From assembly GCF_001676875.1 (NCBI RefSeq), contig NZ_JYKA01000003.1, positions 124,001 through 188,000 of the forward strand: a DNA stretch of 64,000 nucleotides, given 5' to 3'. The notes beneath the pieces are model-generated. The model made no database searches, was not told the origin of the DNA, and saw only the letters and a list, made by a program, of their open reading frames with translations. The stretch's first letter is position 1; each line of letters begins with the position of its first letter. Below, in pieces: positions 13,516 through 29,793 of this stretch. The position numbers were made by a program, and so were the translations under genes. Source of the stretch: Chromobacterium subtsugae. Its GTDB lineage: Bacteria; Pseudomonadota; Gammaproteobacteria; Burkholderiales; Chromobacteriaceae.

Positions 13516-15210
13516 ATGAAACTCCGTTCTCTGGCCGCCGCGCATGGCGGCTTTTTGCTGTCCACCATCTGCCAGGCCGCCGCGCCGCCTGCCTTGATCC
13601 AGCAAACCGATCAGCTGCTGCGCCTGCAGCAGCAACAACTTGAGCAGCAACGCCAGTCGCTGCAGCAACGTCCGGATGTCTTTCTGCCTTCGTCCGCGGG
13701 CGCAAAGCCAGCGCCCGCCATTCCGGGCGCCGCGCCGGCGGCGGCTTGCTTTGCCATCGGCCAGACGCAACTGGACGGCGCGCCGGCCAGCTGGCAGCGT
13801 TGGCTGCAGCCGCTGCTGGATGCCGGGCTGGGTAAGTGCATGGGCCTGGACGCGCTGAATCGCCTGGTGGCGGCGCTGACCAACGAGATGGTGGCGCGCG
13901 GCTTCGTCACCAGCCGGGTTTATCTGCCGGAGCAGAATCTGCGCGGCGGCACGCTGCGGCTGGCGGTGGTGGCGGGCAGGATACACGCCATCCGCTTGAA
14001 GGAAGGCGGCAGCGATCTGGCCCTGCGTTCGGCGTTTTCATCCGGCCCCGGCGACATTCTCAATGTGCGCGACCTGGAGCAAGGGCTGGAGCAACTGGGC
14101 CGGTTGCCGGGCCAGCAGGCAACCATGGAGATGGTGCCGGCGGAGGCGCCGGGCGAGAGCGATGTGGTGGTGGCGCGGCAAGGCGGCCGGCCGCTGTCCG
14201 GCGCGCTGACGCTGGACGACTCCGGCCAGCGCGCCACCGGCCGGCTGCAAAGCGCCGCCAGCCTCAATATCGGCGGCGCCGCTGGCCTGAACGATGTGCT
14301 GGCGCTGTCGTGGACTCAGGATGCCGAGCATCTGCGCCATCCCTTGAGCCAGTCGACCGCCGCCTCCTGGCTGCTGCCGCTGGGCGATTGGACCGCCATG
14401 GCCAGTTACAGCGGCTTCGCCTACCGCCAGACGGTGCAGGGCGTGAACCAGGATTTCATTTCCAGCGGCCACAGCCGCAATACCCAGTTGTCGCTGTCGC
14501 GGCTGTTGCGGCGCGACCAGAGCGGCAAGACCGAACTCAAGCTGAGCCTGACGCGCAAGGCGTCGCGCAGCTTCATCGAGGACGCCGAAGTGGCGCAGCA
14601 GCGCCGCGACCTGACCATCGCCGGGCTGGAGCTCAGCCACCGCCAGTATTGGGGCGAGGCGGTGCTGGACGGTTCCATCGGCTATCAGCGCGGCATCGGC
14701 GCCTGGGGCGCGCAGTCTGACGCCCAGGCGGCGCAAGGCGGCCCCAATCCGCGCCATCAGCTTTACCAGGGGCGGCTGGCGCTGCAACTGCCGCTACATG
14801 CCTGCGGCCAGACCTTGCGCTGGAGCAGCGAACTGCGCGGCCAGTACAGTCCGGACCTGCTGATGTCCAGCGAGCAATTCGCCATCGGCGGCCGCGGCAC
14901 CGTGCGCGGCTTCAATGCCAGTTCGCTGGTGGGGCAGAGCGGCTACTACCTGCGCAATGAACTGAGCTGGCCGCTGCCGCCGGCCGGCGCGCTGGCGTTG
15001 GAACCCTACCTGGGCCTGGACGCCGGCCAGATCTCGCGCCCGGTCGGGGAGACCGGCCCCGAGCGCAGCCTGTCCGGCTGGGCCGCCGGCTTGCGCCTGA
15101 GCCTGGGCGGCCATCTGTCCGCCGAACTGACCCACGAGCGCGCGCTGCACCAGCCGCAAGGCTGGGACCGCCCGGCCATCACCCACTTTTCGATCACCGC
15201 GCAGTGGTAA
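13516..15210 (+). CDS. cdiB: TpsB/CdiB outer-membrane transporter (ShlB/FhaC/HecB family)
   Basis: Two-partner-secretion pore that carries the adjacent giant exoprotein across the outer membrane. The roughly 564-residue protein has a signal sequence and then a Gln-rich N-terminal helix/linker (LLRLQQQQLEQQRQS). Two POTRA domains follow: ARGFVTSRVYLPEQNLRGG near residue 140, then LEQGLEQLGRLPGQQA. The C-terminal 16-strand barrel carries the L6-loop motif GTVRGFNASSLVGQSGYYLRN (first 20 residues shown in part), whose RGF is conserved in FhaC. It ends in a strand terminating ITAQW. GTG at 13513 or ATG at 13516 could start it; ATG is used. The gene lies 36 bp upstream of the exoprotein, the B-A order of E. 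coli-type CDI loci. Confidence 0.9.
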   Translation: MKLRSLAAAHGGFLLSTICQAAAPPALIQQTDQLLRLQQQQLEQQRQSLQQRPDVFLPSSAGAKPAPAIPGAAPAAACFAIGQTQLDGAPASWQRWLQPLLDAGLGKCMGLDALNRLVAALTNEMVARGFVTSRVYLPEQNLRGGTLRLAVVAGRIHAIRLKEGGSDLALRSAFSSGPGDILNVRDLEQGLEQLGRLPGQQATMEMVPAEAPGESDVVVARQGGRPLSGALTLDDSGQRATGRLQSAASLNIGGAAGLNDVLALSWTQDAEHLRHPLSQSTAASWLLPLGDWTAMASYSGFAYRQTVQGVNQDFISSGHSRNTQLSLSRLLRRDQSGKTELKLSLTRKASRSFIEDAEVAQQRRDLTIAGLELSHRQYWGEAVLDGSIGYQRGIGAWGAQSDAQAAQGGPNPRHQLYQGRLALQLPLHACGQTLRWSSELRGQYSPDLLMSSEQFAIGGRGTVRGFNASSLVGQSGYYLRNELSWPLPPAGALALEPYLGLDAGQISRPVGETGPERSLSGWAAGLRLSLGGHLSAELTHERALHQPQGWDRPAITHFSITAQW

Positions 15211-15246
15211 GCCCGCTGCCCTGTCCCGTCTTTTTGAGCTGACAAT

Positions 15247-18200
15247 ATGAACAAGCATCTTTATCGGATCATTTTCAATCAATCGCGCGGCCAATTGATG
15301 GTGGTGCAGGAAGACGCCAGCGGACAGGGCAAGGGCAACGGCGCAGAGGGCGTCGCCGCCACGCTGGGGGCGGCGTGCAAGGCATTCTCGCTGAGGCTGA
15401 GCGTATTGCTGATCGGCCTGGGGCTGGGTGCCAGCGCCTTGGCAGCCGACATCGTCGCCGATCCGCACGCGGCGGCCGGCAAGCAGCCCGGCGTGATCCA
15501 GGCCGCCAACGGCCTGCCGGTGGTGCAGATCGCCGCCCCCACCGCCGCCGGCGTGTCGCACAACCAGTACCTGCAGTTCAACGTCGGCCCCGGCGGCGCG
15601 CTGCTCAACAACAGCGCGGTCAACGTCAACACCCAGCTGGCCGGCTTTATCAGCGGCAACGCCAATCTGAAGAACGGTAGCGCCAGCATCATCCTCAACG
15701 AGGTGACGCAAGCCAACCCTTCGCAGCTGCGCGGCTATCTGGAAGTGGCCGGCCAGCGCGCGCAGGTGGTGATCGCCAACCCCTGGGGCATCAGCTGCAG
15801 CGGCTGCGGCTTCATCAACACGCCGCAGGTCACGCTGAGCACCGGCGCGCCGCAGCTGAACGCCCAGGGCGCGCTGACCGGCTACCGGGTGGCCGGCGGC
15901 CAGGTCAGCGTCGATGGGGCCGGCCTCAATGCCGCCAATGTCGACAGCTTCGCCATCATCAGCCGGGCGGCGTCGATCAACGCCAATTTGTACGCGCAGA
16001 AGCTGGACCTGGTGCTGGGCCGCAATCAGGTGGACGCCGCCAGCTTGCAAGCGCAGCCGCTGGAGGCCAGCCCTGCCGACGCGCCGGCTTTCGCGCTGGA
16101 TGTGGCGCAGCTGGGCGGCATGTACGCCAACGCCATCAAGCTGGTGGGCACCGAGAAGGGCGTGGGCGTCAACCAGCAGGGCGCGATGGCGGCCCAGGCC
16201 GGCGATCTGGAACTGACCAGCGCCGGCGACCTGATTCTGCGCGGCAAAACCTATAGCCAGCAGAATCTGGCGCTGCGCGCCGGCGGCCAGCTGCAACACG
16301 AGGGCATCACCCGCGCCGAAGGCAATGTCCGCATCGACGTGGCCGGCCAGGCCACGCTGCACCAGGCGCTCAGCGCCGGCGGCGATCTGGCGCTGGAGGC
16401 CGGAGCCCTGCGCAGCGACGGCGCCCTGGCCGCCGGCTCGCAAGCCGACGGGAAGCTGAGCGAGCGCGGCAAGCTGGCGCTGACGAGCCGCGGAGAGCTG
16501 CAAAGCAGCGGCGAATTGCTGGCCGGCGGCGATGTCAGCCTGCGGGCCGGGCAGGCCAACTTGGCGGGGACAGTGCTCAGCGCCAGCCACGGCGCGCTGG
16601 AAGTCCAGGTCGCCGGCGATTTGCATGCGCAGCAAGCGCGCCTGAGCGCCGCTGGCGCCGCCCGGCTGGACATCGACGGCCAATTCGACAATCGGGATGG
16701 CCAACTGTCCGCCAGCCAAGTGCAGTTGCAATTGGGCGCGCTGGACAACCGGCAGGGCCAGATCGTGCAGACCGGGCAGGCGAATGCCGACTGGCGGATA
16801 GCCGGCGCCGTCGACAACCGCCAGGGCGAACTGGCCAGCGCCGCCGGACAGTGGCGGCTGCTGGCCGCCAGCCTGGACAACCGCGGCGGCGACATCAGCC
16901 ATGCCGGCGGCGGCGCCTTGCAACTGGCGGTCGGCGAGCTGGACAACCGCGAGCACGGACGCATCGCCAGCGACAGCCGGCTGGATGCGCAGGCCGCGCG
17001 ATTGGACAACCGCCAGGGGCGCTTGGTCGGCGTGCAGGCGGCGACGCTTCAGATTCAGGGGGAGTTGAGCAATGACGGCGGCGTGCTGGGCGGGGACGGC
17101 GCGGTCAAGCTGACGGCCGGCCAGCTCGACAACGGCGCTGGCCTGATCCAGGCAGGCAAAGACCTGCAGCTGAGCGCGACCTCATTGACCAACGCCGACA
17201 AGGGCCAAATCCTGGCCTTGGGCAAGGACGCGTCCAGCCGGCTGGATGTCGATGGCGAAATCCATAACCAGGGCAAGCTCGCCGGCAACGCCGACCTGAC
17301 GGTCAATGCGGCGACCATCGACAACGCCAAGGGCAGCCTGCAGGCCGCCGGCCATCTGGAGTTGGGCAAACAAAGCCAGCTGACTAACGACGGCGGCCAT
17401 ATCGTCGCGCAAAGCCTGAACATCGCCGCCGATGCGCTCAGCAACCAGGGCGGCGAGGTGTATGCGCAGCAGCAGCTGACCAGCCAGCTCAAGACCCTGG
17501 ACAACAGCAAGGGCAGCCTGATCGGCGGCCAGGGCGTCGACTTGACGGTGGCCGACAGCCTGCATAACGACGGCGCGCTGGGCGGCGGCGGCGCGGTCAA
17601 GCTGACGGCGGGCAAGCTGGAGAACGCCGCCGGCACCATCCAGTCCGGCAAAGACCTGCAACTGACCGCCGCTTCGCTCACCAACGCCGACCATGGCCAG
17701 ATTCTGGCGCTGGGCCAGGACGCCGCTAGCAAGGTGGACGTTAGCGGCGAGCTGCGCAACCAGGGCAAGCTCGCCGGCAACGCCGACCTGACGGTCAATG
17801 CGTCGACCATCGATAACAGCAAGGGCAGCTTGCAGACCGCCGGCCATCTGGAACTGAGCAAGCAAAGCCAGCTCACGAACGATGGCGGCCATATCGTCGC
17901 GCAAAGCCTGGATATCGCCGCCGATGCGCTCAGCAACCAGGCTGGCGAAGTGTATGCGCAGCAGCAACTGACTAGCCGGCTGAAGACGCTGGACAATAGC
18001 CAGGGCAGTTTGGTCGGCGGCCTGGGGGTGGATCTCGCGGTCGGCGGCAAGCTGCATAACGACGGCGTGTTGGGCGGCGACGGCGCGGTCAAACTGACGG
18101 CCGGCGCGCTGGAGAATGGCGGCGGCTTGATTCAGGCGGGCAAGGACCTGCAACTGACGGCATCCAGCCTGAGCAATGCCGAAAAAGGCCGGGTTCTGGC

Positions 18201-21200
18201 GCTGGGCAAGGATGCGGCCAGCCTGCTGGACGTCAGCGGCGAGCTGCACAACCAGGGCAAGATCGCCGGCAACGCCGACCTAACCGTCAAGGCGGCAAGC
18301 GTCGACAATGCCAAGGGCAATCTGCAAACCGCCGGCGCGCTGAATTTGACCAAGCAAGCCGCGTTGAGCAACGACGGCGGCCATCTGGCCGCCCAAAGCC
18401 TGAACATCCAGACCGGCAGCCTGAGCAACCAGGGCGGCGAAATCCGCCAGGTCGGCCAAGGCGCGGCTACTTTGCAGATTGGCCAGGATTTCAACAACCA
18501 GCAAGGCCATGTATTCAGCCAAGGCGGCCTCACGCTCGGCGCCGGCCAGCTGGACAATAGCCATGGCGTGCTGGCCAGCCAGGGCGCGCAGCAGTTGCGG
18601 CTGCAAGCGCTGAATAACCAGAACGGCGTGCTGGCCAGCGGCCAGGCGCTGGGCCTCGCCTTGTCCGGCGCGGCCGACAACCGCCAGGGCCAGATCCAGG
18701 GCGACAGCCTGCAGTTAAGCGGCCAGAGCCTGGACAACCGCGGCGGCGCGGTCAAGGCGCTGGGCGCGGACGCCAGCCGGGTCAGCCTGTCCGGCATGCT
18801 GGACAACTCGGAAAAAGGCGCGCTGTCGGTCAACGGCAAGCTGGACCTCGCCGCCGGCCAGCTGAACAATCAGCAAGGCCTGCTGCAAAGCGCGGCGTTG
18901 CTGAGCGCGCAGATCGAGCAGGACGCGCAAAACCGCGACGGCCAGCTGTTGGCCGGCCAGCTGTCGCTGAGCGCCGCCAGCCTGGGCAACCAGCACGGCC
19001 AGATCGGCCAGGCCGGCGGCGAGCTGGCCAAGCTTGACATCCGCGGCCAGATCGACAACAGCGGCCAGGGCAAGATCACCGCCAACGGCCAGCTGCAGAT
19101 CGACAGCGGCGACCTCGACAACCATCAGGGCGTGCTCAGCAGCCAGGGCGACCTGACGCTGCGGGGCGGCGCGCTGAACAACCGCCAAGGCACGCTGGGC
19201 AGCAACGGCGCGCTGGCGGTGACCGGCGCCAGCCTGGACAACAGCCAGGGCCTGTTGCAGGCAGGCCAGGCCCTGCAACTGGACAGCGGCAGCCTGCAGA
19301 ACGGCGGCGGCAAGGTGCTGGCGCTGGGGCAGGGCGACAGCACCTTGAATGTGAGCGGCCAGTTAGCCAACGGCGGCCATATCGCCGGCAACGGCAACTG
19401 GCAACTGAACGCCCAAAGCCTGGACAACAGCGGCGGCAGCGTTTACAGCCAGCGCAACCTGGCGGTCAATGCCGCCACCCTGGCCAACCCCGGCGCCATG
19501 CAAGCCGGGCAGGATCTGGCGCTGACGCTGCAAAGCGACTTCGTCAACAGCGCCGGCACCCAATTGCAGGCCAACCGCAACCTTAGCATCAGCAGCAGCG
19601 GCAACCTGTTCAACAACGGCGAACTGCAAACCGGCGGCAACCTCAAGCTGAGCGGCCTCAACTGGACCAATAACGGCAATGTCAACATCGGCGGCGCGCT
19701 GGATACCCGGCTCAGCCAGAGCCTGGTCAACAACGGCAACCTGGGCGCCGGCGCGCTGAATCTCAACGCCGCCAGCCTGGTCAACACCGCCTCCATCACC
19801 GCTGGAGACATCGCCATCCATGCCGGTAGCCTGGACAATAGCGGGGGCAAGGCGCTGCTGGCCTCGGCTGGCAATCTGGCGCTGGATGTTGGCGGCACGC
19901 TGAATAACCACGACGGCGCCTGGTTGTACAGCCAGGGCGATATGCGCATCGGCCAGGCCGGCGCGAAAACCGGCCAAGTGGTGAATCACGTCGCGACCTT
20001 GCAGTCGGACGGCAATATGTTTATTGACGCCGGGCGGGTGAGTAATGAGTCGAATCCGGTGGTTACTACCGTTAGTACATCAGATTCAAGTGAAAGAAAA
20101 ACACTATATCAGTTCCCAGAAATGGTAAAGGCAATAACCTCGTATTGTGGTCACGATGGGCGAGGTCATTGTATGGCAGAAACAAGACCTTATGTTGGGG
20201 TGTTTGATTTTGGGAAAGGAGAGGATTATAGCTCGCTATATCCTTTTTATGACTGTTCTGCGAATCATTGTTTCCCTCCTGATACGGAGGATCTTAGATA
20301 TAGACTAATTTCAGATGATAGTTCAACTCATCGTCTGACGGTTGAGCGCATGGTTTTTAAAAATCATAGAGGGGATTCTAAATTTTCCTCAAGCTCAATT
20401 GAGAATTATTATTATTTATCTAGGGATGGTTCACGGTATATTTATCCGGTCGGTTTTGATCCGGCCAAAAATTTTCTGCCGAGTGATAGTGTTATTCAAA
20501 ATAGATTGATTCCAGAGTTCTTGGCAGTTCCTAGGGGTGAGTTGGAGTCTCGGGCAGGTAAGCCAGACTATATGTATGATGATTTAGATGTTTTTAATTT
20601 GGGTTTGGTGAAGAAAGTTGAATTGGGTGCTGCTGACTTTCCATATGAAAAGGGTGTGAGTGGGGAGTTGTTTCATGATGTGAAGAAAACAATTTCTATT
20701 GATCGCGCTAGTGCCAGTGTAAATGCAGCTAACCTTTACTCTGGTGGGGATTTGGTTGTTAATGCGGATCAAGTCGTAAATCGCTATAGCAAAGTTGCTA
20801 TAGGTGGTGGGCTGTATGGGGTGGGCCGAAATATTGAGAACATAGGTCAGAAGTTGCAGAAGACGACTGTAACTTCTGAAGTTCAATATTTCATGCAGGG
20901 AACTGAGAATCCATATGTCGATAGGCTTTGTGCAAAAGGAAAGACAGATCAATGCGCTACTCGGGTGGTTAATGTACCAGCTAGTACTTCGACTGAAGTT
21001 ATCGGCTCCCTCGATGCCACCGTCGTCACCAACCAGCACCTGAGCCTGCAAGCGCCCACCATCGCCAACAGCAAGGGCGCGCCGCGGGTGGATGCCGCGA
21101 CGATGCAGGCCGCGCTGGAGAATATCCAGGTGATGTTCGATCGGGCGCCGGACTCGGCCAGCGTCGGCGGCCAGGGCGCGCCGGACCATGCCGGCCAGAC

Positions 21201-24200
21201 GCAGGGCGCGGCGCAGGCGGTGGACGCCGCGGCTCAGCCCGGCAAGCAGGCGCTGGGCGTGGCGGCCGCCGCGGCGTTGGCCAATGCCAGCCCCATCCGC
21301 ATTTACGGCCAGGGAGAGCTGGGCGGGCAGTACCAGCCGGCGCCGGCCCATCAGCAGGTCACATTGCAGGCCGGCGGCGCCAAGGCGGGGAACCCGGTGG
21401 CGGCCGGCTACGCGGTGCCGGACAACGGCATGTTCCACGCCAAGCCCGCGCCGCAGCAGCCTTACCTGGTGGAAACCAATCCGCAGTTCACCCAGTACAA
21501 GAATTTCGTCTCGTCCGACTACCTGCTGAAGCAGCTGAACTACGACCCGAGCAAGGTGGAGAAGAGACTGGGCGACGGCTTTTACGAGCAGCAACTGGTC
21601 AGCCGCGCCGTCACCGATCTGACTGGCAAGCGCCTGCTGGACGGCAGCCGCAACGCGATGGAGCAGTACCAGCAGTTGATGAGCAACGGCGCGCAGTACG
21701 CCAAGCAATTCCAGCTGACGCCGGGCATGGCCTTGTCCGCCGAGCAGATGGCCAAGCTCACCTCCGACATGGTGTGGCTGGTGAAGCAGAACGTGGGCGG
21801 CCAGGAGGTGCTGGTGCCCATGGTCTATCTGGCCAACGCCGATCAAAAGTCGCTGCGCGGCCAGGGCGCGGTGCTGGCCGGCAACAGCATGAGCCTGCAA
21901 GCCAGCGGCGAGCTGATCAATAACGGCGTCTTGAAGGCCGACGCCACGCTGTTGGCGCAGGCCGGCGCTATCCGCATCGAAGGCGGCAAGGTGCAGGCCG
22001 GCGGCGATCTGGGCCTGAGCGCCAGGCAGAACCTGGTGGTCACCGACGACGCCCAGCACAGCCAGGCCGGCAGCAGCATACTGGCTGGTGGCAATCTGCA
22101 GCTGCAGGCTGGCGGCGATCTCAAATTGCAGGCGGCGGACGCGCGGGCGGGCGGCAACGCCTGGCTGCAGGCCGGCGGCGATCTGGACATCGGCAGCCGC
22201 GAAACCAGCTATAGCCTGGGCGGCGGCAACGGCTACGGCAGTTTCCAGTACCAGCAGGTGGACCATGTGGGCAGCCAGCTGAACATAGGCGGCAGCCTGG
22301 TCCTCAACGCCGCCAGCGACCTGACCCTGAGCGGCAGCGCCGTCAAGGCGGGCGGCGGCATTCTGGCGGCGGCCGGCAACAACCTTGCGTTGGAATCCAC
22401 GCAGGACAGCAAGCACGGCGCCGGCAGCTGGCGGGGCGGCGCTTACGACACGCTGTCGCAAAGCCATCACGCCGCCACGCTGCAAGGCGGGGACATCGTG
22501 CTGAAAGCCGGCGGCGACCTCAGCCTGCAAGGCTCTTCGGTACAGGCGGATGGCAGCCTGGCGGCCATCGCCGGCAAGCAGCTGACGCTGCAAAGCCAGG
22601 TGGATACCCAGCGCGACAGCGGCTACAACTGGGGCGGCAGCCATAACTGGCGGACCGACAACCTGACCGTGGCCGGCCTATCCAGCAAGGGCAGCCTGCA
22701 GGCCAGCGCCGGCGGCGACGCCGTATTGAACGGCGCCAGCCTGAGCAGCGATGCCAAGCTGGCCTTGTCCGCCGGCAACGACATCAAGCTGGGGGCGGCA
22801 GCCACCGAAAGCCGCAGCGACAACGACTGGGGCGCCACCGTCCGCAATCAGTACGACCTGACGCAGCACGGCAGCAGCCTGCATGGCGAAGCCGGGCTGG
22901 CATTGCAGGCCGCGCGGGACATCCGCACCCAGGCCGCCAGCCTCGCCAGCGATGGCGAAGCGGCTTTGCTGGCCGGCCGCGACATCTATCTGGGCGCCGC
23001 CGACGACGCCCATAGCGACTACAGCAAGACCGTGCGCTCGTCCGGCGGCTTTTTCAAGCATAAAACCACCGTCGACATCAGCGCGCATCAAAGTACCACC
23101 CAGGTCGGCACCAATGTGTCCGCCGACACGCTCCGCGTCCAGTCCGGACATGACCTCAACATCGTCGGCAGCCAGCTGGCCGGCAGCGGCAATGTCGCGC
23201 TGCAGGCAGGCGACAATATCGACATCGCCGCCGGGGTCAATGCCAGCCAGAGCTTCCAGTTCCACCACGAAAAAACCTCCGGCTTGTTTGGGCTGGGCGG
23301 CGCGGGCTTCATGGTGGGCAGCAAGGAGTTGACCGACGCGCTCAACGCCAACGGCGTCACGCAAAGCCAGAGCAAGAGCCTGGTGGGCAGCCTGAAGGGC
23401 GATTTGTCGGTGCAGGCGGGGCAGGGCTTGAAAGTGCAAGGCAGCAGCCTGAGCGCGCTTGGCGGCAATGTCGATGTTGGCGCCGACAGCGTCGCCGTCG
23501 GCGAAGGCCGCGACATCATGGTGGTGGACCACGACCACATCGAAAAACAGCGCGGCTTCAGCGTCACCGAGGTCAACACGCTGAAAAACACCTTCGACAA
23601 CCTGAAGGATGTGATCCATACCCAGCGCGGCTTCGGCCTGCTCAAGGGGCTGGCCAACGAAGCCGCCGCCAGCACCTCGTCGCAGCAGGGCGTGGACATC
23701 GCCTACTCCCGCGGCGAACAGGGCAGCCACGAACATAGCCGCACCGTCAGCAGCGTGGGCAGCGCGATCCTGGCCGGCGGCGACATCCGCCTGCAGGCCA
23801 GCGGCAAGCCGGCCGATGCCGCCGGCAGCGGCGATCTGACCATCACGGGTTCGCGCCTGCAGGGCGGCGGCAAGGTGGACCTGTTCGCCAACGGCAGCGT
23901 CAATCTGCTGGCCGGGCTCAACCAGCGCCAGGACGACAGCAGCAGCTACCGCTACGACACCCGCGTGTCGATGTACAACCAGCAAATGGGCGACGTGATC
24001 CGCGCGCTGGAGGGCGGCCCCAGCCACAACGGCACTTCGCTGTCGCCGTACAACCAGCTGCGCGCCGAAAGCGTGGGCAGCCGCCAGGACCAGCAGCTGC
24101 AGGCCAGCGAAATCCGCGGCGACCAGATCCGCGTGGTCGGCCTGGGCGGCGATGTCAACGTGGTGGGCGCCACGCTGCAGGGCGTGCACGATGTCAGTGT

Positions 24201-27060
24201 GGCGGCCAGCCAAGGCAGCGTCAACGTGCTGGGCGGCACGGAACATTACCAGAGCAGCCAGGACAGCCACAGCCTCACCTTCGGCAATGTCGGCGGCGGC
24301 AACCACAGCGCCACCGTCGGCGCCCAGCATACCTGGGACCAGCTGGCCGCCAACGGCAGCGAGCAAAGCGGCGGCTTCAGCCGGATAGAAAGCCAGCAGG
24401 GCAATGTCGCGCTCAGCGCCGCCGACGCCATCACGGTGGCGGGCGCCGCGCTGCAGGCCGGCCAGGACCTGTCGTTGACCGGCAAATCGCTGCAAATCGC
24501 CCCCGGCGTGGACCAGGACCAGCACAGCGAAACCCACCGCATGAACCAGCGCGGCATCACCGGCGCAGTCAGCAGCCCCATCCTGGCCGCCGCCGACGCC
24601 GTCACCAGCATGGCCGAAGTGGCCAGCAACAAGAACACCGACGCCCGCACCCGCGCGCTGGCCGCCGGCACCGCCAGCCTGGCCGCCTACAACGGCTACC
24701 AGTCGGCCAAGTCCGTCTCCGACGGCCAATTGATCTCCGGCAGCCTCACCTTCGGCGCCAGCAAGAGCGAAAGCCGCGAGGAAGGCAAATCGCTGGCCAA
24801 TGCCGAAACCAGCCTGACGGCGGGGCGCGACCTGATCCTGCGGGCCAGCGGCGGCGGCAAGGACTCCAATATCGACATCGCCGGCAGTCGGCTGCAGGCC
24901 GGCCGCAACGCCACCTTGCAGGCCGACAACCAGATCCAGCTAGTGTCGGCGCAGGACAGCAGCAGCCTGCGCGGCGAAAACGACAGCTCCGGCTGGGGCG
25001 CCGGCATAGCCGTGTCTTTCGGCAAGGGCGGCTTCAGCTTCGGCGGCACCGCCAACGCCAACCACTCCTTCGGCAAGGAAAACGGCAGCACCATCGACCA
25101 GCGCGACACCACGGTCTCCGCCGGCGACACCCTCACGCTGAAGTCCGGCGGCGATGCCACCCTCAAGGGCGCCGAAGCGCGCGGCCAGACCATCGTCGCC
25201 AATGTCGGCGGCAATCTGGACATCGAAAGCCTGCAAGACCAGCACCAGTACCAAAGCAGCAGCAAGAGCATGGCCGGCAGCGTCACCATCGGCTACGGCT
25301 TCAGCGCCAGCGCCAATTACAGCCAGCAGAAGATGGACAACGACTACGCCAGCGTGCGGCAGCAGTCCGGGCTGAAGGCCGGCGACGGCGGCTACCAGGT
25401 GGCGGTGAAGGGCAACACCAATCTGGCGGGCGCCGTCATCGCCAGCAGCGACCGGGCGGTGGCGGACGACAAGAACAGCCTGAGCACCGGCACCCTCACC
25501 ACCAGCGACGTATACAACCACGCCAGGTCCTCCGGCAGCAGCGTCGGCCTGGCCGTCAGCGGCAGCATGGGCGGCGGCGGCAAAGACGGAGACGGCAAGG
25601 GCGGCGCGGCCAGCGGCAGTAGCAGTAGCAGTAGCAGTAGCAGCGGAGCCGCGGCGGCCGCAGGCAACAGCGCGCCCGCCAGCCAATCGTCCGGCGGCAA
25701 TTACAGCGGCGCCCACGTGCAGCAGTTCGGCAATGGCGGCAGCGCCGGCACGTCCGGCGTGATGGCTTCCAGCCAAAGCGCCGAAAGCGTCACCCGCGCC
25801 GGCATCAGCGGCGGCAAGCTCGCCATCGTCGACGACGCCGGCCAGCAGGCCCTCACCGGCCAAAGCGCCGCCCAGGCCGCCGCGGCGGTAAATCGCGGCG
25901 TCAACAGCGACAGGGACGGCGCCAACGCCTTGCAGGACAAGTTCGACAAGCAGCAACTGCAAACCGCCTTCACCGTGGTGCAGACGTTTACCGACCAGAT
26001 CAGCACCTTCGCCGCCAACAAGGCGGTCGAAGCTAAAGCGGCCAAGGACCTGGCCGACAGGGCCAAGACCGACCCGTCGCTGAGCGACGAGCAAAAAGCC
26101 CAGTTGCAAGCCCAGGCCGACCAAGCGGCCAAATGGGCGCCGGGCGGCCGCTACAGCCAGATCCTCACCGCGGCAACCGCGGGGATCAGCGGCAATGTCG
26201 GCAACAGCCTGAGCGACATGGCGCAAAACGCCGGCATCGCTTACCTGCAGGGCCTGGGCGCGCAGCAGATCAAGCAGATGGTGGATGAGCTGGAAAAGGG
26301 CGACAAAACGGTAGCAGGCGAAACCGTGCGCGCGGTGCTGCACGGCGCGCTGGCCTGCGCCGGCGCCGAAGCCAGCAGCCAAAGCTGCGCGGCGGGCGCG
26401 ATTGGCGGCGCGGCCAGCGTGGCGTTGAACAATGCGCTGGACAAGGCGCAAGACACCAACTCCGACAAGATGACGGCGGAAGAGAAGCAGCAGCGCGAGA
26501 ATCTGGTCAGCAGCCTGCTGGCTGGCGCATCCGTCGCCGCTGGCGCGACGGATACCGCCGCGACTACGGTGAATGCGGCGAAGACGGAAATGGAGAATAA
26601 TTTCTTTGCTTTGCCAATGACGCCACCGCCAGTAGCGTTACCTGGCAAAATCCCTCCCATTGTAGATAGCTCACTTGATGGTAAGCCAAATTTGGCAAGT
26701 CAGATTGCAGGAGAGGTTCGTGGCTCTTTAGAGGGGGCTGGCAAGGCATTTAATGACCCTAAGGCATTTGGTCAGTTTATTCTTGAAGGTATGGGAATCG
26801 TAGACCCAATTGATCCAAGTAGCTACTCGCGCTCTTATGGGAAAGATTTGAGTAAGGGAGATATTGTTGATTTGTCGGATTTTGGCCAGCGTCAAAAGCA
26901 GTCGGGAGGAGGTGCAAACTATGTTGATCCCAAAACTGGATGGAGTATTTCTCCCGAACGCAGTGGAAATCCGCACGGTGGTAGTGCTTGGAAGCTATTT
27001 GATGCGAAAGGACGGCGAGTAGCAACTTTGGATGAATCTGGGAAGGTTTTGAGAAAGTGA
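15247..27060 (+). CDS. cdiA: Giant CdiA-like contact-dependent inhibition exoprotein (3,937 residues)
   Basis: TpsA-type filamentous exoprotein, probably a CDI toxin-delivery stick. Domains in order: an extended signal peptide region (MNKHLYRIIFNQSRGQLMVV); a hydrophobic core and cleavage near residue 62; a TPS secretion domain to about 320 with NPWGISCSGCGF at 178-189; and FHA repeats to about 1590, including three 164-residue tandem repeats. A block about 1595-1918 of different base composition sits where the receptor-binding domain lies in E. coli CdiA. A YLVETNPQFTQYKNF domain lies near 2080, a second FHA region reaches about 3400, a Ser-rich linker sits near 3460, and a pretoxin domain ends in MENN at 3782-3785 (usually VENN). 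The last 152 residues, ending HGGSAWKLFDAKGRRVATLD...LRK, form the variable toxin tip. Its motif recalls small beta-rich nuclease toxin domains such as Ntox21, but I cannot confirm this. A pure adhesin role is the alternative. Confidence 0.85.
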   Translation: MNKHLYRIIFNQSRGQLMVVQEDASGQGKGNGAEGVAATLGAACKAFSLRLSVLLIGLGLGASALAADIVADPHAAAGKQPGVIQAANGLPVVQIAAPTAAGVSHNQYLQFNVGPGGALLNNSAVNVNTQLAGFISGNANLKNGSASIILNEVTQANPSQLRGYLEVAGQRAQVVIANPWGISCSGCGFINTPQVTLSTGAPQLNAQGALTGYRVAGGQVSVDGAGLNAANVDSFAIISRAASINANLYAQKLDLVLGRNQVDAASLQAQPLEASPADAPAFALDVAQLGGMYANAIKLVGTEKGVGVNQQGAMAAQAGDLELTSAGDLILRGKTYSQQNLALRAGGQLQHEGITRAEGNVRIDVAGQATLHQALSAGGDLALEAGALRSDGALAAGSQADGKLSERGKLALTSRGELQSSGELLAGGDVSLRAGQANLAGTVLSASHGALEVQVAGDLHAQQARLSAAGAARLDIDGQFDNRDGQLSASQVQLQLGALDNRQGQIVQTGQANADWRIAGAVDNRQGELASAAGQWRLLAASLDNRGGDISHAGGGALQLAVGELDNREHGRIASDSRLDAQAARLDNRQGRLVGVQAATLQIQGELSNDGGVLGGDGAVKLTAGQLDNGAGLIQAGKDLQLSATSLTNADKGQILALGKDASSRLDVDGEIHNQGKLAGNADLTVNAATIDNAKGSLQAAGHLELGKQSQLTNDGGHIVAQSLNIAADALSNQGGEVYAQQQLTSQLKTLDNSKGSLIGGQGVDLTVADSLHNDGALGGGGAVKLTAGKLENAAGTIQSGKDLQLTAASLTNADHGQILALGQDAASKVDVSGELRNQGKLAGNADLTVNASTIDNSKGSLQTAGHLELSKQSQLTNDGGHIVAQSLDIAADALSNQAGEVYAQQQLTSRLKTLDNSQGSLVGGLGVDLAVGGKLHNDGVLGGDGAVKLTAGALENGGGLIQAGKDLQLTASSLSNAEKGRVLALGKDAASLLDVSGELHNQGKIAGNADLTVKAASVDNAKGNLQTAGALNLTKQAALSNDGGHLAAQSLNIQTGSLSNQGGEIRQVGQGAATLQIGQDFNNQQGHVFSQGGLTLGAGQLDNSHGVLASQGAQQLRLQALNNQNGVLASGQALGLALSGAADNRQGQIQGDSLQLSGQSLDNRGGAVKALGADASRVSLSGMLDNSEKGALSVNGKLDLAAGQLNNQQGLLQSAALLSAQIEQDAQNRDGQLLAGQLSLSAASLGNQHGQIGQAGGELAKLDIRGQIDNSGQGKITANGQLQIDSGDLDNHQGVLSSQGDLTLRGGALNNRQGTLGSNGALAVTGASLDNSQGLLQAGQALQLDSGSLQNGGGKVLALGQGDSTLNVSGQLANGGHIAGNGNWQLNAQSLDNSGGSVYSQRNLAVNAATLANPGAMQAGQDLALTLQSDFVNSAGTQLQANRNLSISSSGNLFNNGELQTGGNLKLSGLNWTNNGNVNIGGALDTRLSQSLVNNGNLGAGALNLNAASLVNTASITAGDIAIHAGSLDNSGGKALLASAGNLALDVGGTLNNHDGAWLYSQGDMRIGQAGAKTGQVVNHVATLQSDGNMFIDAGRVSNESNPVVTTVSTSDSSERKTLYQFPEMVKAITSYCGHDGRGHCMAETRPYVGVFDFGKGEDYSSLYPFYDCSANHCFPPDTEDLRYRLISDDSSTHRLTVERMVFKNHRGDSKFSSSSIENYYYLSRDGSRYIYPVGFDPAKNFLPSDSVIQNRLIPEFLAVPRGELESRAGKPDYMYDDLDVFNLGLVKKVELGAADFPYEKGVSGELFHDVKKTISIDRASASVNAANLYSGGDLVVNADQVVNRYSKVAIGGGLYGVGRNIENIGQKLQKTTVTSEVQYFMQGTENPYVDRLCAKGKTDQCATRVVNVPASTSTEVIGSLDATVVTNQHLSLQAPTIANSKGAPRVDAATMQAALENIQVMFDRAPDSASVGGQGAPDHAGQTQGAAQAVDAAAQPGKQALGVAAAAALANASPIRIYGQGELGGQYQPAPAHQQVTLQAGGAKAGNPVAAGYAVPDNGMFHAKPAPQQPYLVETNPQFTQYKNFVSSDYLLKQLNYDPSKVEKRLGDGFYEQQLVSRAVTDLTGKRLLDGSRNAMEQYQQLMSNGAQYAKQFQLTPGMALSAEQMAKLTSDMVWLVKQNVGGQEVLVPMVYLANADQKSLRGQGAVLAGNSMSLQASGELINNGVLKADATLLAQAGAIRIEGGKVQAGGDLGLSARQNLVVTDDAQHSQAGSSILAGGNLQLQAGGDLKLQAADARAGGNAWLQAGGDLDIGSRETSYSLGGGNGYGSFQYQQVDHVGSQLNIGGSLVLNAASDLTLSGSAVKAGGGILAAAGNNLALESTQDSKHGAGSWRGGAYDTLSQSHHAATLQGGDIVLKAGGDLSLQGSSVQADGSLAAIAGKQLTLQSQVDTQRDSGYNWGGSHNWRTDNLTVAGLSSKGSLQASAGGDAVLNGASLSSDAKLALSAGNDIKLGAAATESRSDNDWGATVRNQYDLTQHGSSLHGEAGLALQAARDIRTQAASLASDGEAALLAGRDIYLGAADDAHSDYSKTVRSSGGFFKHKTTVDISAHQSTTQVGTNVSADTLRVQSGHDLNIVGSQLAGSGNVALQAGDNIDIAAGVNASQSFQFHHEKTSGLFGLGGAGFMVGSKELTDALNANGVTQSQSKSLVGSLKGDLSVQAGQGLKVQGSSLSALGGNVDVGADSVAVGEGRDIMVVDHDHIEKQRGFSVTEVNTLKNTFDNLKDVIHTQRGFGLLKGLANEAAASTSSQQGVDIAYSRGEQGSHEHSRTVSSVGSAILAGGDIRLQASGKPADAAGSGDLTITGSRLQGGGKVDLFANGSVNLLAGLNQRQDDSSSYRYDTRVSMYNQQMGDVIRALEGGPSHNGTSLSPYNQLRAESVGSRQDQQLQASEIRGDQIRVVGLGGDVNVVGATLQGVHDVSVAASQGSVNVLGGTEHYQSSQDSHSLTFGNVGGGNHSATVGAQHTWDQLAANGSEQSGGFSRIESQQGNVALSAADAITVAGAALQAGQDLSLTGKSLQIAPGVDQDQHSETHRMNQRGITGAVSSPILAAADAVTSMAEVASNKNTDARTRALAAGTASLAAYNGYQSAKSVSDGQLISGSLTFGASKSESREEGKSLANAETSLTAGRDLILRASGGGKDSNIDIAGSRLQAGRNATLQADNQIQLVSAQDSSSLRGENDSSGWGAGIAVSFGKGGFSFGGTANANHSFGKENGSTIDQRDTTVSAGDTLTLKSGGDATLKGAEARGQTIVANVGGNLDIESLQDQHQYQSSSKSMAGSVTIGYGFSASANYSQQKMDNDYASVRQQSGLKAGDGGYQVAVKGNTNLAGAVIASSDRAVADDKNSLSTGTLTTSDVYNHARSSGSSVGLAVSGSMGGGGKDGDGKGGAASGSSSSSSSSSGAAAAAGNSAPASQSSGGNYSGAHVQQFGNGGSAGTSGVMASSQSAESVTRAGISGGKLAIVDDAGQQALTGQSAAQAAAAVNRGVNSDRDGANALQDKFDKQQLQTAFTVVQTFTDQISTFAANKAVEAKAAKDLADRAKTDPSLSDEQKAQLQAQADQAAKWAPGGRYSQILTAATAGISGNVGNSLSDMAQNAGIAYLQGLGAQQIKQMVDELEKGDKTVAGETVRAVLHGALACAGAEASSQSCAAGAIGGAASVALNNALDKAQDTNSDKMTAEEKQQRENLVSSLLAGASVAAGATDTAATTVNAAKTEMENNFFALPMTPPPVALPGKIPPIVDSSLDGKPNLASQIAGEVRGSLEGAGKAFNDPKAFGQFILEGMGIVDPIDPSSYSRSYGKDLSKGDIVDLSDFGQRQKQSGGGANYVDPKTGWSISPERSGNPHGGSAWKLFDAKGRRVATLDESGKVLRK
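17072..18440 (+). repeat. Three tandem 492-bp (164-residue) repeats inside cdiA
   Basis: The phrase GCGGTCAA(G/A)CTGACGGC recurs at 17101, 17593 and 18085, exactly 492 bp apart each time. The intervening protein (GKLAGNADLTVNA, LTNDGGHIVAQSL, EVYAQQQLTS) is nearly identical between copies 1 and 2 and diverges in copy 3, which breaks down after about 18400. The period is a multiple of three, so gain or loss of a unit keeps the frame and only changes the filament length. Confidence 0.85.
20028..21003 (+). other. AT-rich block in cdiA, probable exchanged receptor-binding domain
   Basis: Codon use changes abruptly from GC-ending to AT-ending codons at about 20030 and reverts at about 21005 (residues about 1595-1918), with the frame intact. 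The protein here is no longer FHA-repeat-like and has paired cysteines (TSYCGHDGRGHC, YDCSANHC, RLCAKGKTDQC). In E. coli CdiA the receptor-binding domain lies between the two FHA blocks at a comparable place. The position and foreign composition suggest that this domain was swapped in by recombination. Confidence 0.7.
25610..25646 (+). repeat. (AGTAGC)n-type simple repeat coding poly-Ser in cdiA
   Basis: AGCGGC followed by alternating AGT and AGC codons encodes SGSSSSSSSSSG, then a run of Ala. It is a low-complexity linker before the pretoxin region. Slippage by whole units would change linker length without a frameshift. Confidence 0.8.
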
Positions 27061-27068
27061 GGAGTATT

Positions 27069-27482
27069 GTGAAGATTGATGAATATCCATTTCGAGCTGA
27101 TATTTCCGTGTATGACCATGTGCTTAATGAGGAGGAGTGTGATGCGTTGCCATTTATGTGTTTTGATCATGCGAATGATAATAATTGCTTAGATGACTAT
27201 TATGTTGGTGAGAAGAAATTTTGTGGCTGGTTTGGTGATTTGATTGGTATTTCCAATGAAGTGGTTTTTTTTGCAGGGAGAAAAATTGGAAAGAATGAGT
27301 TAAGGCGATTAATAATTCTTGGATTACGTGAAAGGAAGTTAAGTGAGCTTGAATTTTCGGATGGAAGGCTAGTTGTAAGATTTGGATATGATCAAACACA
27401 TAATGTTTTTTCGATGGATGGTGATTTGTTTGATAGGACAATAAAACTCGCCAAACTGAATGGTTTGCATTTAATAAGTTAA
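27069..27482 (+). CDS. cdiI: Probable CDI immunity protein
   Basis: A 137-residue soluble protein with no signal peptide or membrane segment. It lies directly behind cdiA, where CDI loci encode the cognate immunity protein that blocks the toxin tip in the cytoplasm. The GTG at 27069 is preferred because TGAGGAG (27058-27064) precedes it; a GTG at 27057, overlapping the cdiA stop codon, would add four residues. The gene is strongly AT-rich, like the cdiA tail and unlike the core genome, as expected for a toxin/immunity pair that moves as a unit. I do not recognise an immunity family. Visible features are an acidic N-terminal half (LNEEECDALPF, NNCLDDYYVGEKK) and the C-terminal FSMDGDLFDRTIKLAKL. 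The function is inferred from position. Confidence 0.65.
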   Translation: MKIDEYPFRADISVYDHVLNEEECDALPFMCFDHANDNNCLDDYYVGEKKFCGWFGDLIGISNEVVFFAGRKIGKNELRRLIILGLRERKLSELEFSDGRLVVRFGYDQTHNVFSMDGDLFDRTIKLAKLNGLHLIS

Positions 27483-27588
27483 GTTAATGGTTCGGGGGGG
27501 AGGGCAGGTCACGGTTTTCATCGGGCAGGCCCTCACTCTCGAGTGCCTCTGTTTTGCACTGGTGACTCGGGTTTCCTAAAGCGGCAGG

Positions 27589-27627
27589 CCATAGATTGGG
27601 CTTCATTTCATTCATCCTAATCTACGG
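27589..27627. repeat. Partial REP-like hairpin (right end of the 28056/28684 repeat family)
   Basis: CCATAGATTGGG at 27589 and CCTAATCTACGG ending at 27627 form an imperfect inverted pair around TTCATTTCATT. The same core, TTGGGCTTCATTTCATTCA, occurs at the right end of the repeat at 28684-28811. Confidence 0.65.
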
Positions 27628-27643
27628 TTTCAAGCAAATTATT

Positions 27644-27662
27644 CAGGACCGTAGATACCGTC
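27644..27662 (+). repeat. 19-bp inverted repeat, left copy
   Basis: CAGGACCGTAGATACCGTC matches the reverse complement of 29597-29615 at 18 of 19 positions. It lies 7 bp outside the 3' end of the transposase fragment. Confidence 0.7.
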
Positions 27663-27669
27663 TTTCACG

Positions 27670-28055
27670 TCAAGCGGCTCGTGCGTAGTCGGCCCGGTAA
27701 GGCTGGCGTGTTTTCAGCACGCCAAAGCACAGATGGACCAGCTTGCGCATAGCTGCTCCCAGGGCGGACATTTTCGTCTTGCCCCGCGCTAATAATCGTT
27801 GATACAGCGCCTTAACATGTGGGTTGTATCGTATGGCGACCACTGCTGCCATGTACAGCACGGCTCGAAGGCGCGCTGGCCCAGCTTTGGATAGGTGAGC
27901 TCGGCCCAAGAGCGAACTGCCTGATTGACGTTCCACTGGCACCAAACCAAGATATGCGGCCAATTGCTCGGCGCTGACGAAATGATGGGTATGGATGATG
28001 GCCAGAAGATTGCTGCCCGACTGTGGGCCAATGGCCGGAATGCTGCTCAACAGGA
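27670..28055 (-). pseudogene. IS110-family transposase, C-terminal fragment
   Basis: The last roughly 128 residues of an IS110-type transposase (Transposase_20 domain). IPAIGPQSGSNLLAII, FVSAEQLAAYLGLVP, GPARLRAVLYMAAVVAIRYNP and the C-terminal CFGVLKTRQPY are visible. The N-terminal DEDD catalytic half is absent. At 28056 the frame runs into a REPIN-like repeat, so the apparent first residues (GFTSLAQP) are translated repeat DNA. The remnant marks past insertion and deletion next to the toxin locus and cannot encode a working enzyme. Confidence 0.85.
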
Positions 28056-28183
28056 CCATAGGTTGGGCTAAGCTTGTGAAGCCCAACGTTTACCGTGAAA
28101 TATATGATAATGCCTATGGGTTAGGTGATGTCTGTTGCTTCTCGGTAAGCGTTTGTTTTCATTTCATTCCGCCCAACCTATGG
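28056..28183. repeat. REPIN/MITE-like repeat, copy A, with perfect 13-bp inverted ends
   Basis: CCATAGGTTGGGC (28056-28068) and GCCCAACCTATGG (28171-28183) are exact inverted repeats. An internal hairpin TTGGGCT...AGCCCAA lies at the left end. The body matches copy B (28684-28811) through GTTTACCG(C/T)GAAATATA and GATAATGCCTATGGG. The two copies are direct repeats flanking one gene. Confidence 0.85.
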
Positions 28184-28208
28184 CTCAGTAGCCTTTTGTG
28201 GGGATGGT

Positions 28209-28679
28209 ATGGATTTAAATGATTTTAAAAGAGGTTTTTTAAATAAAAATTTGATTTCTATTTTGTCTGAGTGCTTTAAAGGTGCTGGCAATATTGATAT
28301 TGGAAAAGTCAAGAGCTTGGGCTGGGGAGGGTATGCATTAGATGATATAAACATCTTTGATGAAGATGCTGTTTTTTTAAGCATGGTGATGAAGAGTGTT
28401 GATGTGAGCAGTGTGTTCTTGGTTCGAGATATAGACATTGGCATTGAAAATCATAAGGTGGAATGTCTTGTATTTGATCCGGAAAAGAAGAGGTTGGAGG
28501 AGTTTCAAAAGTTTGATTTCCACCTTGAGTTGCCATTGCTAGACTGCGTTCTGTTCGATGAGAAATTTCAGTTTCTAATCCATCGCCCAGCAAGCTTTGA
28601 CAAGGATATGATGTATTTTGGCCCGCCAGCGTTCCTGGATGTAGCAGTTGTTGGTAATGGATGGCGAAAGATTTTTTAA
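28209..28679 (+). CDS. Unknown AT-rich gene, candidate orphan immunity protein
   Basis: A 156-residue soluble protein starting at ATG 28209 behind GGGGATGG. No family is recognised. The N-terminus is basic and helical (MDLNDFKRGFLNKNLISIL), the middle is acidic (YALDDINIFDEDAVFLSM, VRDIDIGIENHKVECL) and the end is hydrophobic (FLDVAVVGNGWRKIF). Small, acidic, AT-rich, single-domain genes downstream of cdiA are typically immunity genes left by earlier toxin tips. This one has no toxin fragment beside it. It sits exactly between two direct copies of a ~128-bp repeat, with 25 and 4 bp gaps, like a cassette. The function is inferred from context only. Confidence 0.55.
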   Translation: MDLNDFKRGFLNKNLISILSECFKGAGNIDIGKVKSLGWGGYALDDINIFDEDAVFLSMVMKSVDVSSVFLVRDIDIGIENHKVECLVFDPEKKRLEEFQKFDFHLELPLLDCVLFDEKFQFLIHRPASFDKDMMYFGPPAFLDVAVVGNGWRKIF

Positions 28680-28683
28680 GGAG

Positions 28684-28811
28684 CGTAGGTTGGGCTAAGC
28701 TTGCGAAGCCCAAGGTTTACCGCGAAATATACGATAATGCCTATGGGGTAGGCTATATCTTTTCATTCTCGGTAAACGTTGGGCTTCATTTCATTCAGCC
28801 CAATCTGCGGC
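28684..28811. repeat. REPIN/MITE-like repeat, copy B
   Basis: Same orientation and length as copy A. The left hairpin is TTGGGCTAAGCTTGCGAAGCCCAA, whose stem halves are TTGGGCT and AGCCCAA. The right hairpin is TTGGGCT-TCATTTCATTC-AGCCCAA. The outer ends are imperfect inverted repeats (CGTAGGTTGGGC against CGCAGATTGGGC, 10 of 12). It starts 4 bp after the stop of the gene at 28209. Confidence 0.8.
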
Positions 28812-28919
28812 CCTGGTTAGATTGATATATTAGATTTTAAAATTAGAGTCCAATTTGGATATAAATTATTATGTTATTCAGCTAAGGACTATCATTTGTG
28901 ATTGATCGGATTAATTTAA

Positions 28920-29405
28920 ATGTCCTTATGGGAGCGTTTTTTTTCTACGTGCTTATTTTTCTTTTCGATTGCAATTTTTTTGACGATTTTTATATTTGCA
29001 CTTTTGGTAAATTTCTTAAGGAGTTATGATGTTTTTGTTCTCCAGTTTTTGTCGTTTTTCTTTTTTTCGGTATCAGCTCTTGCTTTAGGGGTGATTTTTT
29101 CCGGGTTTTTGAAAGAGTGTAAATTTTATGGTGGGGTAATTTTGAGGTTGGGGTGGTATTTTTACATCCTCAAACTATTGGTATTGATTTTTTTGGGTTG
29201 GCCAGCTCATAGCGGTTGGGTAATGTTAAGGGGGCTGTGGGGATGGGTGGGGCTTTGGGTGTATTTCCCTGCTTGGATATTGGAGAGGAGGAGGATGAAA
29301 TGGTTTTTAGGCTTTCCACTTTACTTGCTTCTTCCTGATGCCATTTTTATTATAATCTTTTTTTTCAGAAAGGAATTGATTGGAGTGAGGTGTTTGCTTA
29401 CTTGA
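28920..29405 (+). CDS. Unknown AT-rich integral membrane protein (161 residues)
   Basis: Four or five hydrophobic segments are visible: LFFFSIAIFLTIFIFALLV, FLSFFFFSVSALALGVIF, YFYILKLLVLIFLGW, LWGWVGLWVYFPAWIL and LLLPDAIFIIIFFF. No signal peptide or known motif is seen. Codon use is strongly AT-biased. It lies between repeat copy B and the 19-bp inverted repeat and overlaps the next small gene by 16 bp, so the two are probably translated together. Membrane immunity proteins are known for pore-forming toxin tips, which is one possible role. No strong ribosome site precedes the ATG, so a later start cannot be excluded. Confidence 0.5.
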   Translation: MSLWERFFSTCLFFFSIAIFLTIFIFALLVNFLRSYDVFVLQFLSFFFFSVSALALGVIFSGFLKECKFYGGVILRLGWYFYILKLLVLIFLGWPAHSGWVMLRGLWGWVGLWVYFPAWILERRRMKWFLGFPLYLLLPDAIFIIIFFFRKELIGVRCLLT

Positions 29406-29572
29406 TTTCTCTGGGGTTTTATTCCATTTTCTTTAAGTATATTTTTGATTTATTTATTCATAGATTTCATTTTAAGTCTAACTGTTTTGAATCGAATATT
29501 TTCGTGGTAGTTGCTACTGTTTTTTCTGTTTTAGGAGGAGGTGGTTTGTTTTTGTTCGTTATTTTTGTTTAA
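29390..29572 (+). CDS. Small AT-rich membrane protein overlapping the previous gene
   Basis: A 60-residue product starting at GTG 29390 with GGAG five nt upstream, inside the 3' end of the previous gene. Two hydrophobic stretches (YLISLGFYSIFFKYIFDLFI and IFVVVATVFSVLGGGGLFLFVIFV, first 20 shown) flank a short basic loop (HRFHFKSN). The overlap and shared composition suggest a translationally coupled pair. It could instead be the separated C-terminal part of a once longer membrane protein, so a frameshift between the two frames is a real alternative. Confidence 0.4.
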   Translation: MFAYLISLGFYSIFFKYIFDLFIHRFHFKSNCFESNIFVVVATVFSVLGGGGLFLFVIFV

Positions 29573-29596
29573 GGGTTTTGTGAGGTGGCCGTTCTG

Positions 29597-29615
29597 GACG
29601 GTATCTACGGCCCTG
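29597..29615 (-). repeat. 19-bp inverted repeat, right copy
   Basis: The reverse complement reads CAGGGCCGTAGATACCGTC, matching 27644-27662 except at one base. Its outer half, ATCTACGGCCCTG, also resembles the right edge of repeat copy B (ATCTGCGGCCCTG). Confidence 0.7.
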
Positions 29616-29764
29616 TGGGAGTCAGTTTTGTCTGAGCAAGTCGTAGGCTTAATGTGGTTTAGTCTTTCGTACGCGCCATCGATATGGCGAGAATGCCCAG
29701 CTCGCATGCCATCTGGCTGGCGCGCTCAGCGCAGTCGCGATCCACGGTTCTCGCTAGGAAGAAA

Positions 29765-29788
29765 GCCGCCGCCATCACTGGCGGCGGC
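29765..29788 (-). terminator. Terminator of the PAS chemoreceptor gene
   Basis: GCCGCCGCCA-GTGA-TGGCGGCGGC on the minus strand is a perfect 10-bp stem followed by TTTCTTCCT, just past the stop at 29794. The 190 bp between this and the last accessory gene hold only the 19-bp repeat and no gene. Confidence 0.85.
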
Positions 29789-29793
29789 GGGTT

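Follow-up and report, generated by a model that had tools for sequence, protein, structure and literature searches.

A contact-dependent inhibition locus of Chromobacterium subtsugae with a tail of candidate orphan immunity genes between REPIN-like repeats

A stretch of 64,000 nucleotides from Chromobacterium subtsugae (contig NZ_JYKA01000003.1, positions 124,001 to 188,000; "the window" in the following) carries a contact-dependent inhibition (CDI) locus that is complete by gene content (cdiBAI), followed by an AT-rich tail of small genes. We hold it to be probable, with some reservation, that this tail is an array of orphan immunity genes delimited by copies of a repeat resembling REPINs, the hairpin-forming doublets of repetitive extragenic palindromic (REP) sequences. 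A first-pass annotation of the window had counted the repeats as mobile debris; they look rather like the organising element of the tail. The features in question are listed below in window coordinates. L and G numbers denote loci and genomes, respectively.

13513-15210, + strand: cdiB, two-partner secretion transporter (565 aa; ShlB E 1.1e-97, POTRA_2 and POTRA_3)
15247-27060, + strand: cdiA effector (3937 aa; ESPR, TPS E 2.2e-51)
26845-27060, + strand: CdiA toxin tip, predicted colicin-E3-like fold
27069-27482, + strand: cognate immunity gene (cdiI), directly behind cdiA and with a related gene behind a Gilliamella tip
27596-27623, + strand: remnant (3' end) of a third repeat copy (26/28 bases, E 6e-8)
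27646-28056, - strand: IS110-family remnant, end sequence common to L084, L089 and L091
28057-28185, + strand: repeat copy A, REPIN-like (118 bits in the repeat profile)
28209-28679, + strand: ORF2, orphan-immunity candidate (156 aa), located in the gap between the two full repeats
28684-28814, + strand: repeat copy B, REPIN-like (131 bits in the repeat profile)
28920-29405, + strand: ORF3, orphan-immunity candidate by position only (161 aa, very hydrophobic)
29390-29572, + strand: short hydrophobic open reading frame (ORF) overlapping the ORF3 end, possibly the displaced ORF3 C-terminus
29597-29613, - strand: 17-bp reversed IS110 end at the right edge of the tail, identical to the IS110 end of L084 and L089
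12753-32161, no strand: segment lacking at the corresponding site of 9 sister genomes (flank alignment)

Results

Domain searches and gene positions bore out the parts named in the first-pass annotation, namely CdiB, a giant CdiA, an adjacent immunity gene and an IS110 remnant. The last holds the C-terminal part of the transposase only (138-aa ORF 27670-28086, - strand, Transposase_20 E 9.9e-25). The two repeats of about 128 bp were likewise recovered, with lengths of 129 bp (A) and 131 bp (B), together with the remnant of a third; REPINs are usually shorter. The tail genes had been counted as three AT-rich genes without recognisable relationship. Near a T-run (29356-29405), ORF3 and the small ORF after it overlap, and they may be one frameshifted gene, so that the three genes may in fact be two. 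A toxin fragment had not been visible in the tail; in agreement with this, searches of the tail ORFs against Pfam and NCBIfam found no toxin or pretoxin domain, fragments below the ORF limits not being included in them. The 17-bp sequence at 29597-29613 agrees with the window's own IS110 end at 27646 in 16 of 17 bases. Such IS110 ends stand beside repeat copies or their remnants in several arrays (window 27646-27674, L084:4222, L089:9989, L091:9238), which fits with the description of some IS110 elements as targeting REPs (PMC1525189).

To describe the repeat family, 19 genomes of the genus were searched with repeat B, and copies with at least 95 aligned bases were taken as full-length. Matches occur in 15 of the 19 genomes and full-length copies, 40 altogether, in 9. 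Rfam gave no match within 26500-29800. As single-stranded DNA the repeat folds into a single hairpin of -33.1 kcal/mol, compared to -14.6 kcal/mol for shuffled sequences (sd 2.5, z -7.5). It consists of two inverted REP-like ends that carry a GTAG tag, a tag described for REPs (PMC3733652), and it agrees with the published definition of REPINs as given in PMC3116915. Transposases of the Y1/RAYT type (REP-associated tyrosine transposases) were found in 10 of the 19 genomes, with 14 genes listed. Six of these were examined, two in the source genome G000 and one each in G003, G009, G016 and G017; each lies between inverted REPs that have a core of 17-20 bases in common with the repeat ends. In G000 the core of the flanking REPs is matched at 20/20 bases on one side and at 19/20 on the other, and the outer halves differ from the repeat. 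Judged by sequence, the repeat is REPIN-like, with a relationship to RAYT transposase genes of its own genome. Among the matches listed outside the genus, most have the size of a REP, and one in G057 is longer (116 bp, 73%). As a side observation, two consecutive RAYT genes, each between inverted REPs and with more REPs between them, stand at G000:C34:336403-338157 (L121), possibly as a tandem duplication.

The 40 copies were sorted by us from gene maps, with some flank genes checked by Pfam. Ten lie in CdiA tails, eight in tails of Rhs loci (the Rhs label was tested with a hidden Markov model for L086 only, L088 and L092 being assigned by synteny) and eight in islands with toxin-like fragments. 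The remainder is found at a site with an FAD-dependent oxidoreductase (three, with one small gene or no cargo), at a histidine-kinase site with small genes (six) and at other single sites (five). Among the islands, L090 shows a PT-HINT match below cut-off (E 3.7e-5), and the fragments of L089, L091 and L093 we take to be toxin-like from an HExxH motif seen by eye, a label that we assume. At the oxidoreductase site, a bare repeat in the source genome (L100) corresponds to differing cassettes with small genes or toxin-like fragments in three sister genomes (L087, L089 and L093).

The copies are strongly clustered. Another copy occurs within 2 kb for 30 of the 40 repeats, compared to a mean of 0.2 and a maximum of 6 in 2000 trials of random placement. 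The 19 inter-repeat gaps have a GC content of 0.29-0.60 (window 0.64); two, of 52 and 125 bp, leave no room for a gene. Of 49 pairs formed by a repeat and a nearby AT-rich ORF, 41 have both members on one strand, and in the nine array loci this holds for 36 of 38 pairs.

Repeat edges also coincide with the edges of homology. In unmasked alignments, 16 of 53 distinct homology edges were located within 5 bp of a repeat edge, compared to 1.67 expected; this count takes in L088 together with its orthologue L092 (leaving out L092 gives 13 of 49, with about 1.5 expected) as well as some edges that are the outer ends of alignments containing a repeat. A gene with and without a toxin-like partner was found in the same material. 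An immunity-type gene of 94 aa (beginning MVNNFTYLDW) occurs at three kinds of site. In L089 and L091 it is preceded by an ORF with an HExxH motif (703 bp, 95.6% identical between the two loci), and in L088 and its orthologue L092 it is alone in a 395-bp gap between repeats, which the match fills to within 3 bases. Similarly, a PT-HINT toxin fragment in L082 (E 8.7e-23) begins at a repeat edge, and its relative in L083 extends upstream into a CdiA fragment of 935 aa.

These findings have to be weighed against the possibility, in our view a somewhat unlikely one, that the repeats are passengers: ordinary module displacement would pile up the orphans, and a selfish RAYT-dependent element would insert in dispensable AT-rich DNA. 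Integrase-free displacement is the model published for Vibrio cholerae (PMC5361080), and lone repeats do occur at ordinary sites. A number of observations weigh against an organising role of the repeat, beginning with the overlaps in the edge count given above. Full-length repeats were found in only three of the eight recognised CdiA-tail loci (window, L082 and L083), and 17 loci fetched for their CdiA ends (L102-L118, some cut by contig ends) gave no repeat match. One of them, L105, carries five co-oriented AT-rich genes behind CdiA (11031-13876), the first probably being the primary immunity gene, with no repeat of at least 30 bp and no toxin fragment seen. From such repeat-free tails in sister genomes it follows that the repeat is not required for them. 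For 11 of the 40 copies neither a toxin nor an immunity gene could be made out, and the source genome has a further bare copy at L100. The link to RAYT genes is not strict either: a Y1 match is present in only six of the nine repeat-bearing genomes (not in G002, G007 and G008) and occurs without full-length repeats in G001, G003, G005 and G016. On the other hand, the number of homology edges at repeat edges is about ten times the expected one, same-strand pairs make up nearly all of those in the arrays, and the 94-aa gene occurs at different chromosomal sites, trimmed at repeats in one of them. All three speak against mere passengers and for the repeat-delimited array.

The nature of the cassette genes was investigated with the tail of the window and with the sister arrays. 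An orphan gene in L082 (12203-12544) has 38% identity with the genes directly behind the CdiA tips of L109 and L110. For the distal gene L105:11031-11420, the identity with the gene directly following the CdiA tip of L106 (G004) is 86%. The orphan-immunity character proposed in the first-pass annotation is therefore supported in part, by two orphans of sister tails; for the window itself it is less firm, since ORF2 matches no cognate immunity gene and ORF3 has no relative in 299 other order-level genomes. Profile searches of the tail products found the Transposase_20 domain of the IS110 remnant and no immunity family for ORF2 and ORF3. We regard ORF2 as a weak candidate for an orphan immunity gene and ORF3 as perhaps another, by position alone.

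ORF2 has an intact frame. Its distant relatives (23-29% identity, E 3e-6 to 1.5e-4) were found in two of 60 other genomes of the family, G041 and G038, which belong to another genus. In G041 the relative is preceded by three small genes, paralogues of each other, in alternation with a fragment that duplicates the end of a gene of 549 aa lying upstream, and in G038 small AT-rich ORFs are located near it. Both layouts resemble toxin/immunity arrays. The neighbours had been judged by eye to be toxin and immunity genes, a claim that was lowered for lack of Pfam support. A profile search with ORF2 found its own genome only among 369 class genomes, and a first scan of genome contigs gave no match. 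The predicted structure is a poor model (pLDDT 56) without PDB match at E 0.001, and for these reasons nothing is concluded from the fold.

Several results for these genes stand on the same side as the points collected above. In addition to the missing matches of ORF2 and ORF3, the five proteins tested from the G041 and G038 loci, the ORF2 relative included, have no Pfam match. The window cassettes have no second copy among the matches listed in the genus, so that their movement is deduced from relatives, and ORF3 is possibly broken. A named immunity family was seen for only one of 32 array proteins, with Imm50 just below the cut-off (25.5 bits, cut-off 27.1); one further protein matched DUF7683 and one DUF3592. 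Finally, a repeat-bounded cassette in L082 (11525-11956, G017) holds a fragment of a chemoreceptor gene that ends at a repeat edge and is 86% identical over 432 bp to window 31034-31462, the uncut gene right of the tail.

Two other explanations of ORF2 and ORF3 have to be considered here. Decay of the whole tail to debris, with both genes as relics under no selection, we consider unlikely. It would be in accordance with the IS110 and repeat remnants, the possible frameshift and the lack of ORF3 relatives, but the ORF2 frame is intact, members of the ORF2 family also stand among small AT-rich genes in another genus, and sister array genes match genes behind CdiA tips. Quite unlikely, to our judgement, is the capture of unrelated accessory genes between repeats. 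The chemoreceptor fragment is a case of such a capture, and searches with ORF2, ORF3 and the genes next to the ORF2 relative brought no immunity family; however, size, GC content and orientation of ORF2 and ORF3 are like those of other array genes, and the layout around the ORF2 relatives also argues against it.

Comparison with the sister genomes reveals the site without the locus. The left flank matched in all 19 genomes of the genus, and 10 of 18 sister sites were fetched. In nine genomes (L192-L200) a stretch of 299-1955 bases separates the left flank (to window 12642-12752) from the right flank (from 32148-32165). The first-pass annotation had raised the case of tail genes standing at the same place in strains without any CDI locus; at 9 of 9 sites that could be read across, the CDI locus and the tail genes are both absent. 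No repeat was found at these nine sites, and nothing of the window sequence lying between the two flanks matched there except chemoreceptor pieces of 121-147 bp, with hits deeper in the right flank. In G016 (L191) the CDI locus is present, with the contig ending within cdiA and the tail out of view. The window tail genes are thus linked to the CDI locus and absent where the locus is absent in all nine readable genomes, and the idea of the tail genes as a general feature of the site was rejected for the sites read. The chemoreceptor gene right of the tail was tried as an orthologous flank and rejected as well, as the matches in L165-L170 are confined to this gene or parts of it; the empty site was located from the left flank.

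The core of the locus shows the parts by which CDI systems are recognised in sequence: a CdiB of the ShlB/FhaC type, a CdiA that combines a TPS domain with haemagglutinin repeats and a pretoxin motif, and a polymorphic tip with its cognate immunity gene. The haemagglutinin repeats comprise nine Fil_haemagg_2 and 17 Fil_haemagg stretches. The pretoxin region carries a MENN motif at 26590 and a weak PT-VENN match below cut-off (E 0.0066). The cdiI ORF spans 27057-27482 with a likely start at 27069, 8 bases past cdiA (137 aa, GC 0.35). From the cdiA core the GC content falls from 0.655 to 0.465 in the last 471 bases and 0.348 in the immunity gene, the tail having 0.425 overall. A further island of GC 0.41-0.43 lies within the GC-rich cdiA at 20000-20999, presumably where receptor-binding domains sit, and is possibly an exchanged recognition module.

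The CdiA tip is probably a colicin-E3-type rRNase, as its predicted fold resembles such enzymes (PDB 4ntq, 1jch). By sequence, comparison with 4ntq gave a phmmer E of 1.3 only, a similarity too low for reliable detection. The search for the tip covered 369 class genomes, and the 368 besides the source genome gave no match. The tip of a Gilliamella CdiA (from a metagenome-assembled genome) is 68% identical, and the gene next to it is related to the window cdiI (26% identity over 108 columns, E 4e-5 within that locus). For the immunity protein no family was matched in Pfam and NCBIfam. Its PDB sequence matches to a chimeric and a designed protein (E 1.7e-4 and 4.6e-4) were discounted, as a short stretch was covered, and the PDB sequence searches yielded nothing usable. 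Searches of plasmid sequences, made with ORF2 and with the immunity protein, were negative. Apart from this locus, the source genome G000 contains a second TPS-domain protein (C15:59484-60254, open frame 1615 aa), and TPS proteins of similar length recur in the genus.

Discussion

A mechanism can be proposed for the repeat-delimited array. CdiB would export CdiA, whose tip would probably act as a colicin-E3-type rRNase, and the adjacent gene would protect the producer. Behind it, the cassettes would be separated by co-directional REPIN-like hairpin copies. Since repeats and genes are co-oriented, a crossover that joins two copies can remove the DNA between them or insert a unit of gene and repeat. 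A repeat landing between a toxin gene and its immunity gene would let the toxin go and the immunity gene stay. ORF2, and perhaps ORF3, would then protect against toxins of other strains. Exchange driven by RecA or RAYT, expression of the cassettes and the protection itself are what we infer from the arrangement. Protection from toxins the cell no longer makes, as suggested in the first-pass annotation, is accordingly one option only; cassettes may also arrive without their toxins.

A wider reading goes beyond this tail and is speculative, in our estimate rather improbable. A hairpin of the REPIN/RAYT type would have come to bound the cassettes of a system without integrase, by which contact-dependent immunity genes are gathered, freed of their toxins and moved among CDI tails, Rhs tails and stand-alone islands. 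It would be a convergent counterpart of integrons and of the rAID (recombinase-associated acquired interbacterial defence) arrays, with a hairpin repeat in place of the recombination site.

How orphan immunity genes are gathered is an open question, and a defined repeat at the cassette edges makes it testable. If the proposal is true, REPIN-like elements gain a role in interbacterial defence. The repeat could further serve as a simple DNA marker for immunity islands away from toxin loci.

Comparison with known systems

Orphan arrays behind CDI loci are known. What appears new is the REPIN-like boundary common to CDI, Rhs and stand-alone immunity sites. No publication joining REPIN or REP with CDI, Rhs, immunity or Chromobacterium was found among the top matches of a literature search, which is weak evidence of absence. 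Orphan cdiA-CT/cdiI modules have been described (Poole 2011, PMC3150448; PMC9086364), with the mechanisms of module exchange called unknown in PMC3150448. The window is similar in that displaced modules accompany a CDI locus. In the passages of that literature dealing with them, the orphan immunity genes are thought to be kept for protection and the toxin parts are truncated; the toxin fragments usually encode VENN and no bounding repeat is mentioned there, whereas the window tail has immunity-type genes only, placed between REPIN-like repeats. The tip resembles the CdiA-CT of Enterobacter cloacae and colicin E3 in predicted fold (PDB 4ntq, 1jch; PMC9086364).

Arrays of orphan immunity genes of the type VI secretion system in Vibrio cholerae also contain immunity genes without toxins, and the relevant part of PMC5361080 states that there is no evidence of an integrase. 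They belong to another secretion system and are explained there by displacement, with no bounding element described. The rAID arrays of Bacteroidales (PMC12247911, preprint) share co-oriented short genes with conserved intergenic sequence. As described in the preprint they have a tyrosine recombinase, whereas here the intergenic element is a REPIN-like hairpin and a RAYT gene lies elsewhere in the genome. The scan of the window tail ORFs and of 32 array ORFs showed neither a tyrosine recombinase nor an integron integrase, attC sites not being part of this search.

With the REPINs and RAYTs covered in PMC3116915 and PMC3733652, the present repeat shares the inverted REP doublet as a hairpin and the related REPs flanking RAYT genes. 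In contrast to them, its copies are few and clustered at toxin/immunity loci rather than randomly spread. The meningococcal tpsA/tpsC/IORF islands are similar in that a two-partner secretion toxin is followed by cassettes and immunity genes, which undergo exchange by recombination (PMC3848433). According to the account given there, recombination proceeds via toxin-gene homology, whereas in Chromobacterium a non-coding repeat could supply the homology.

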